Below, piece after piece: positions 2,957 through 11,695 of a stretch of 36,359 nt of DNA. The notes under the pieces are model-generated. The model was not told the origin of the DNA, did no database searches, and was given only the letters and a program-made list of their open reading frames with translations. The translations under genes were made by a program, and so were the position numbers. Location: positions 1-36,359 of the IMG/VR virus record IMGVR_UViG_3300047319_000838, one strand, 5' to 3'. This DNA comes from a virus. Within the stretch, counting starts at the first letter, position 1. Each line of letters starts with the position of its first letter.

Positions 2957-4315
2957 TTAAGCCTCAGAACTTGAGTTTAGATCAATAACATTGCGAGCGC
3001 CATGTCGAGTAGATTCAGGAACAGCGTTTGGAAGTTTCTGTCTAATCAAATTAATGTAATAACTTTCCACGTCATCTGATGACTTTCGAACCGAAGAAAT
3101 TGCTTGAAGAGCTAGTCGAGTATTTTCTTCAAGATAACGCCTATATGTTGAGTCTTCTGGCTTAATATGTCCAATCACTTTTGCACCCTCCGATTTTTTA
3201 GATGGCCACTTCCAGTTTTGATCCAGAGCGGCGCCTATCAACTTTTCACTTAATTTGTCATAATTCTCACTTAATTTAATGAGAACAAAATCAATTCGTT
3301 CTTGACCAAATTTATTAATCAAGTTACTTGCCTTTTCTTCTGAAATTTCAAAAGTCAATAATTTATTTTTTAAACAAACAAATTTATCTTTCATGGTTGG
3401 TATTGTACCACAATCTGGCTTTAGCCCCAAGATATTAGTATTGTTTTCTTTAAAGATCTTCTTAGATCTTTGATCTATAGAGTTGGGTGGCAGAAATGAT
3501 CTCAACTGGGTGGCAGAAATGATCTCAACTGGGTGGCAGAAATGATCAGAACTAATATTTTTATCCACAACGGTATTGGTTATAGGTATAGGTTTATCCA
3601 CAGATTTTTCAAATATATTATTGATAATAGGTACATTGTTATCCACAAATAGATTGGCGATAGGTTTTTCAAATTTCATTTTTACCTCCTGATGATTCAC
3701 GCTATAAAACTTTCCTGACCTATTGTTTTGAATATCAGATAACTTTGAAAGAATAAGATTATCTTTTTCAAATTTATAAAATATTTCTCTTAGCAAACGC
3801 TTGCAGATAAATGGAGCCCATGTATTAATTTCAGAATATGTTAGCCAAATACTTTCTTTTTCATAAATTATAATGTTAAAATTTAACTGTTGAATAATGC
3901 CTGCAGCTGTAATTCCAAATTCCTTGGCTATAGTTGGTAAAATTAAGAGCGGTTTCTCATGCTCATTAATTAGATTTATTATTGAACCATCATCAGTACA
4001 TTTAAACCCCCATTTTAGAAGTTTTTCATAATTAATAATTAACTTAGAACCTAACATTTGGTTTTTAGATTTAGTTAAATCAATAAGATTTATATTCACT
4101 AATTGAACAATAATTCTTTTTAATTGGGGGATGCTTATGAAAGGAATTCTTTCATGTAACTTCGGGTATGTAATTAAATATTCTTCTTGATTTGATTTTG
4201 ATTTCTCATAATGTATCTTTTGAAGAACAAGAGCTAAGGCTGGAGATTTGTTAATTTTCAAAGCTAAAGAAGCCAATAGTTTTAAAGGAGGCTCATCAAT
4301 TAAAAGTTTAGACAC
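2957..4315 (-). CDS. Replication initiator with two winged-helix-like domains and an internal origin
   Basis: A 452-residue protein read as the replication initiator. Start choice: the frame opens at TTG (about 4321), but GTG two codons on has GAGGG 8 nt upstream. Two similar helical segments follow each other: ALALVLQKIHY...LITYPKLHERIPFISIPQLK...VNINLI (about 28-80) and AAGIIQQLNF...IWLTYSEINTWAPFICKRLL...KDNLI (about 138-190). Both look like winged helices, the layout of iteron-binding plasmid initiators such as RepE/RepA. Residues about 220-280 are a linker encoded by the iterons and DnaA boxes. The C-terminal part ends in EKLIGAALDQNWKWP, like the end of helicase-loading or DnaD-like regions. 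No ATPase or polymerase motif is seen. I infer that it melts the origin with DnaA and recruits the host helicase. Confidence 0.7.
   Translation of the reverse strand: MSKLLIDEPPLKLLASLALKINKSPALALVLQKIHYEKSKSNQEEYLITYPKLHERIPFISIPQLKRIIVQLVNINLIDLTKSKNQMLGSKLIINYEKLLKWGFKCTDDGSIINLINEHEKPLLILPTIAKEFGITAAGIIQQLNFNIIIYEKESIWLTYSEINTWAPFICKRLLREIFYKFEKDNLILSKLSDIQNNRSGKFYSVNHQEVKMKFEKPIANLFVDNNVPIINNIFEKSVDKPIPITNTVVDKNISSDHFCHPVEIISATQLRSFLPPNSIDQRSKKIFKENNTNILGLKPDCGTIPTMKDKFVCLKNKLLTFEISEEKASNLINKFGQERIDFVLIKLSENYDKLSEKLIGAALDQNWKWPSKKSEGAKVIGHIKPEDSTYRRYLEENTRLALQAISSVRKSSDDVESYYINLIRQKLPNAVPESTRHGARNVIDLNSSSEA
3452..3471. repeat. 8-bp inverted repeat beside the iterons
   Basis: AAAGATCT (3452-3459) and AGATCTTT (3464-3471) are a perfect inverted repeat around TCTT. 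It lies 13 bp from the first iteron inside the initiator gene, and may be part of the origin architecture or chance. An AT-rich stretch follows at lower coordinate (about 3357-3395). Confidence 0.4.
3485..3553 (+). repeat. Three tandem 23-bp iterons (replication origin)
   Basis: Head-to-tail copies at 3485-3507, 3508-3530 and 3531-3553. The unit is GGGTGGCAGAAATGATC followed by TCAACT. Copies 1 and 2 are identical, and copy 3 has AGAACT at its end (2 mismatches). Twenty-three bp is close to two helical turns, as in plasmid iterons. Because 23 is not a multiple of 3, the initiator frame reads the unit in all three frames (HFCHP, IISAT, SFLPP). The amino-acid sequence is therefore not what is conserved; the DNA is. 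Confidence 0.88.
3561..3647 (+). other. Cluster of three consensus DnaA boxes (replication origin)
   Basis: TTATCCACA, the E. coli consensus DnaA box, occurs at 3561-3569, 3594-3602 and 3639-3647, all in the same orientation, starting 8 bp after the last iteron. Iterons next to DnaA boxes are the classic layout of P1, F and pSC101 type origins. Location inside the initiator gene resembles lambda ori within gene O. On the coding strand the boxes encode the repeated VDK/VDN residues of the linker. Confidence 0.88.
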
Positions 4316-11057: not shown

Positions 11058-11252
11058 ATGGCTTACAAAGACTCATTAACATTATATGAAGAGCTTATCG
11101 CAACTGGCACACCGGAAGCATAAGCTAAAACAACAGCTCATCAATTGGGGGATGTAACTAATATTCTTGTGAAAATAGAAAAGGATTTAATGTGGATGCG
11201 AGTTATAGGTGCTGCGATGGTAGTGGCTTTCATGACTAATTTTTTTAGGTGA
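11058..11252 (+). pseudogene. Family member D, interrupted by a nonsense codon
   Basis: Reads MAYKDSLTLYEELIATGTPE, A, then TAA (11121-11123) exactly where members A and C have a glutamine codon. The frame then continues in register through VKIEKDLMWMRVIGAAMVVA to TGA at 11250. One C-to-T change explains the stop. AGGAGAA precedes the ATG, so the ribosome site is intact. The conserved frame after the stop suggests a recent loss, unless the stop is read through. Confidence 0.85.
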
Positions 11253-11256
11253 AAAA

Positions 11257-11352
11257 ATGGAATATAAGGAATCATTAAAACTATATCAAGAATTGCTTGA
11301 ATCAAATAAGAATGATGAACAATCTATTAGTGAACCTCTCGCCCATAAATGA
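11257..11352 (+). pseudogene. Family member E, 5' fragment
   Basis: ATG at 11257 opens MEYKESLKLYQELLESNKND, EQSI, a recognisable family head. After about 11330 it enters unrelated, GC-richer sequence and stops at 11350-11352. The matching 3' half of a family member resumes at about 11570. The stop overlaps the ATG of the ORF at 11349 as ATGA, so the fragment may now act as a translated leader. Confidence 0.7.
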
Positions 11353-11528
11353 GCAAGCTTCTAGGATCACTCCTAAAAGTTCCTGTTTCTCCGCTCGTTG
11401 CTTATCGAAATAAGTCTTACATAAGCTCCGCAGGCTTTGTACCACAGTTCGAGTGGTACGAAATCTTGGCAGCCGTCTTAATGTTGGTAAAGATCTTGCT
11501 TATTGCCATGTCTGATTATATCCGCTAA
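11349..11528 (+). CDS. 59-residue ORF inside the insert that splits family member E
   Basis: Starts MSKLLGSLLKVPVSPLVAYR and ends with a hydrophobic helix, WYEILAAVLMLVKILLIAMS then DYIR. There is no good Shine-Dalgarno; the start overlaps the preceding stop, so coupling is possible. Base composition is clearly richer in G+C than the flanks, and the DNA holds several hairpins (for example GTACCAC...GTGGTAC at about 11438-11458, CTTAT-CGAA-ATAAG near 11402-11415). The stretch could therefore be a structured RNA and the frame accidental. No family is recognised. Confidence 0.4.
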   Translation: MSKLLGSLLKVPVSPLVAYRNKSYISSAGFVPQFEWYEILAAVLMLVKILLIAMSDYIR

Positions 11529-11561
11529 CCCACCTGTAAACAAGTGGGATTGCGCGGATAT
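11518..11561 (+). terminator. Two-storey hairpin at the right end of the insert
   Basis: The outer stem ATATCCGC (11518-11525) with GCGGATAT (11554-11561) encloses an inner stem CCCAC (11529-11533) with GTGGG (11544-11548). TTTTG follows. It overlaps the stop of the 59-codon ORF and could be a terminator, or an end structure of a mobile element, since subterminal hairpins are typical of IS200/IS605-type elements. Confidence 0.6.
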
Positions 11562-11695
11562 TTTGTTCAAAGTTAATTGAAAAATTAGACAAACTTGAAA
11601 CTCAAATGGATAAGTTATATGTCATAGGAATCTGCATAATAATTAGCATTATTTTTCTTTCTGGGTTTTTAGTTCTTAGCTTTATATTTTATTAA
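11558..11695 (+). pseudogene. Family member E, 3' fragment
   Basis: Frame reading SKLIEKLDKLETQMDKLYVI then a membrane helix GICIIISIIFLSGFLVLSFI and stop at 11693-11695. This is the coiled coil plus C-terminal anchor expected for the head at 11257, but in a different frame relative to it, consistent with an insertion of about 240 bp between them. There is no start codon with a ribosome site. The last 27 bp overlap the end of the minus-strand gene at 11669. Confidence 0.65.

Follow-up and report, generated by a model that had tools for sequence, protein, structure and literature searches.

Ends-only derivatives of IS605-type insertion sequences are known as PATEs and have been described in Haloquadratum (PMC3119063) and in Halanaerobium (PMC7290912). 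The PATEs of the archaeon Haloquadratum walsbyi are multi-copy and transposase-free, carry subterminal palindromes related to IS605-type ends, lack terminal inverted repeats and show no target duplication (PMC3119063). The PATE-like IS605 element of Halanaerobium hydrogeniformans, of about 271 nt, is composed of a left end (LE) with a hairpin, the end of tnpB and a right end (RE), without tnpA, and its parent IS is present in the same genome (PMC7290912). In the autonomous elements ISDra2 and IS608, which use TTGAT and TTAC as targets, a dimer of TnpA cuts the element out as a single-stranded circle, which is inserted 3' of the short target without duplication (PMC8612924).

Here we describe a 235-bp insert in a small gene (gene E) of a virus whose record contains tailed-phage genes, including those for the terminase large subunit and the major head protein (PHROGs). 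The insert is very probably a transposase-less, ends-only element of the IS200/IS605 type (PATE-like), located 3' of TTGAAC on the minus strand inside gene E, which is truncated by the insertion. This kind of element is already known, and the window (the whole 36,359-nt stretch of DNA analysed) adds a member carried by a phage. Subterminal hairpins are present and terminal inverted repeats absent, as in the PATEs of H. walsbyi, but the element is in a single copy. In size and layout, perhaps including the end of tnpB, it resembles the H. hydrogeniformans element, from which it differs in having no known parent and a phage as its carrier. With ISDra2 and IS608 it presumably shares the mechanism of single-strand excision and insertion, although it is transposase-less and its target is TTGAAC. 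The locus provides an IS605-type ends-only element in a phage gene for which both occupied and unoccupied alleles are available, and is thus a small, naturally occurring system in which to test whether single-strand transposases mobilise such elements in trans and whether the elements retain a TnpB guide RNA.

Results

Gene E belongs to a family of small phage genes coding for a coiled coil and a membrane anchor. Its frame starts at 11257 and, in the window, reaches a stop codon at 11350-11352, after 31 codons. Head and tail of the gene are separated by the insert (11330-11564), which has a GC content of 44.3%, versus 23.9% in the joined flanks. A preliminary description of this DNA, made by reading the letters alone, had already proposed that E was split by GC-richer sequence of about 240 bp ending near 11570, close to the right edge placed here. 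Joining the flanks without the insert gave an in-frame product of 67 residues containing the coiled coil and the anchor, while the other two tail frames showed early stops. An in-frame outcome would be expected by chance in about one third of cases, and it is taken as support rather than as proof. The neighbouring family member D (11059-11253) contains an in-frame TAA at 11122 and is open in the closest relative found (L124, see below), so two adjoining members of the family are broken in the window genome. Coordinates of the features are collected in Table 1.

Table 1. Features of the interrupted gene E and of the insert (strand relative to the window).
Feature	Position	Strand	Basis
Gene E, 5' part	11257..11329	+	Near-identical to intact E of L124 as far as base 11329
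Non-autonomous IS200/IS605-type element, very probable, 235 bp (LE at 11564, RE at 11330)	11330..11564	-	RE homology, LE homology, boundaries
RE: hairpin CTTGCTC-ATTTAT-GGGCGAG, linker AGG, cleavage site TTCAC	11330..11357	-	Matches RE of IS605 elements L002, L003, L006, L007 and L123
59-codon frame, probably not a gene	11349..11528	+	105/2000 shuffles as long; no relative or family
Extra 9-bp hairpin CTTTTAGGA/TCCTAGAAG with GTGA loop, beside the RE hairpin	11358..11379	-	Hairpin seen; guide role inferred
Body: possible remnant of tnpB 3' tail/omega-RNA region	11380..11514	-	Weak similarity to L002 and L123; folding at chance level
LE two-storey hairpin, CCGCGCAATCCCAC core	11519..11560	-	Same core, position and target as L004/L005
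Target site TTGAAC (GTTCAA on +)	11565..11570	-	Single copy kept, no duplication; same hexamer at LE flank of L004 and L005
Gene E, 3' part (coiled coil and membrane anchor)	11565..11693	+	In frame with the head once the flanks are joined

The hairpins named in the preliminary description are all present in the insert: TAGGA/TCCTA (found at 11362-11375 instead of near 11373-11386), CTTAT-CGAA-ATAAG (11401-11414), GTACCAC/GTGGTAC (11439-11459) and the two-storey hairpin (11519-11560). With short flanks, the insert folded better than all of 200 shuffled sequences (z -4.6 as RNA and -3.4 as DNA). When the signal was divided by part, z was -6.9 for the two-storey hairpin, -2.7 for the hairpins of the left edge and -0.8 for the interior. 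The structure signal of the insert sits in its ends, and the folding of the body is ordinary.

In a blastn search of phages, the left edge of the insert gave the sole clearly significant match, with 86.7% identity (E 4e-5) between positions 11330-11374 and Lactobacillus phage 521B, a single genome deposited under two accessions. The matching DNA lies roughly 80 bp downstream of a gene that carries the annotation IS605 transposase and is 78% identical to an annotated TnpB. The same RE match was found in phage Lb338-1 (L003) and in several Lactobacillus plasmids, and a pattern scan of viral contigs located a complete tnpA-tnpB element with this RE in a metagenome phage (L123). In element orientation the common RE reads AGAAGCT-hairpin-TTCAC. 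The 3' arm of the extra hairpin beside it presumably contains the right guide, GAAG. Two Lacticaseibacillus plasmids (L006:3001-3041 and L128:2001-2041) carry the same IS605 RE with no tnpB annotated beside it, and these copies are possibly further ends-only elements or remnants. In Lb338-1, a ROOL RNA (Rfam RF03087, 213 bits; L003:2385-2957) adjoins the IS605 element.

At the right edge, positions 11528-11576 matched the LE side of an IS200/IS605 element present in the Shewanella plasmid pNi1-3 (L004) and the Aeromonas plasmid pMCR5_045096 (L005), with E values of 0.8-3 that are weak when taken alone. TTGAAC followed by 11 nt, GCAATCCCAC and a hairpin is common to this element and to the window insert. 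The plasmid element is full-length (2.3 kb), with divergent tnpA and tnpB genes and a body unlike that of the insert; its RE ends in TTCAC and lies on the same side as in the window. Both ends of the insert therefore agree in placing the LE at the right and the RE at the left, with the element on the minus strand. Both are related to IS605-type ends in the correct relative orientation, the RE match being significant and the LE match weak by itself.

Over 2313 bp the two plasmid copies share 99% identity, and their surroundings differ; the block common to them starts with AGTGAAC and ends with GTTCAA. The window insert has the same edges, starting with GTGAAC at 11330 and being followed by GTTCAA at 11565. 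Since the plasmid copies are in different contexts, they fix the boundaries at GTGAAC on one side and just before GTTCAA on the other, as placed in the window. This holds to within one base, because a C at both junctions can be assigned to either side, and the empty site is the same in both cases. TTGAAC occurs once at the insert, as expected for an insertion without target duplication.

Copies of the locus without the insert had been proposed as a check, and a search for them returned an unbroken E at the same place in two relatives. The closest relative found, L124 (IMG/VR 3300046516_001101), shows 96% DNA identity to the window as far as 11329, and the identity resumes at 11566. Gene E is open there, with 128 codons from an upstream GTG (as given in the ORF list) or 112 if counted from the ATG corresponding to that of the window; the gene at the same place in G002 is likewise unbroken. 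The site in L124 is not simply empty: 27 nt (9 codons; reverse complement of 3617-3643) occupy the position of the element, and further differences from the window follow downstream in the E tail. These 27 nt are absent from the window exactly at 11329/11565 and similar codons occur in G002, which suggests a 27-nt deletion at the insertion point in the lineage of the window. This loss may have come with the insertion, or the window allele may be a mosaic. In L077 (10001-12280), the terminase large subunit gene contains an in-frame insertion with a homing-endonuclease motif (CFSPD...GWFAGIIDGEG...VVSHNS), which looks like an intein.

Searches of the window, of near relatives and of the sequence collections used turned up neither a second copy of the insert nor a cognate full-length element. 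E. coli genomes gave no match to the insert. Exact-pattern scans for the ends yielded few or no further copies, and most matches in one scan lacked the IS605 LE layout, with L115 as a possible exception; another scan gave two Bifidobacterium matches. No tnpA or other Y1 transposase gene was detected in the window and no tnpA remnant in the insert, which at 235 bp is too short for a transposase.

Discussion

The preliminary description had read the insert as one of three things: a very small mobile element that lacks a transposase but has ends like those of IS200/IS605, a structured RNA such as a small intron, or an inserted gene complete with terminator. The mobile element is the strongly favoured explanation, supported alike by the homology of the ends, the target site, the boundaries and the empty sites. 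The 59-codon frame on which the inserted gene was based does exist; it is open, becomes hydrophobic towards its end and has a strong hairpin after it, as expected of a small membrane-protein gene with its own terminator. When the insert was shuffled 2000 times, however, 105 of the shuffled sequences (5%) had a frame of at least 59 codons, no ribosome site is visible before the ATG, and searches with the product found no relative or family. The supposed terminator, moreover, has the position and the core of an IS605 LE hairpin. This reading is judged highly improbable. A self-splicing intron (group I or II) or another structured RNA able to reunite the two halves of E in the transcript would account for a structured insert whose exact removal puts E back in frame, but no Rfam covariance model matched at its gathering score, hits below it were at chance level, and the structure is limited to the transposon ends. 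It is likewise highly improbable, and the least probable of the readings considered. A tRNA scan was empty.

A further proposal adds to the ends-only explanation and does not compete with it: the element would keep a working omega-RNA with the flanking phage DNA as its guide, and a TnpB provided in trans would help the element to persist by cutting alleles that lack it. The RE homology covers the part that ends an omega-RNA, and a covariance model built from four Lactobacillus omega-RNA regions matched the minus strand over exactly 11330-11499 (E 0.0009). This match, however, rests on the RE hairpin, and leaves long unaligned insertions in the body. The body itself is weakly similar to the tnpB-tail/omega-RNA region of L002 and L123 (3 and 24 of 1000 shuffles, respectively, were as good, five comparisons having been made). 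Against this, it showed no similarity at the 5% level to L004, including its tail, L003 or L007 in the same shuffle test, and its z of -0.8 makes it no more folded than shuffled sequence. The presumed tnpB tail (29 aa) gave no match in a protein search, and no TnpB was found in 15 related phages. On these comparisons the body may derive from a tnpB tail and omega-RNA, and a working guide RNA in it is possible; its retention by the element is nevertheless judged unlikely. Slightly less likely again is the fullest form of the proposal, a 235-bp phage-borne guide-only element with neither transposase nor nuclease, whose omega-RNA would direct a TnpB of the host to empty copies of the phage gene.

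The ends-only element is a candidate for mobility, and since the window contains no Y1 transposase gene, its movement would need TnpA in trans. Its probable origin is a longer element that lost tnpA and tnpB through an internal deletion, perhaps with a piece of the tnpB tail left in place. By analogy with the known mechanism of IS608 and ISDra2, from which the following steps are inferred, a TnpA of the HUH/Y1 type supplied by the host or by another element would recognise both subterminal hairpins on single-stranded DNA and would cut after TTGAAC and TTCAC, using short guides beside each hairpin. At the LE, CAA (in GCAAT, 5' of the inner hairpin) would pair with TTG of TTGAAC; at the RE, GAA (5' of the hairpin) would pair with TTC of TTCAC. 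The element would then move as a single-stranded circle. The same arrangement of guides and targets is present in the full-length Shewanella and Aeromonas element.
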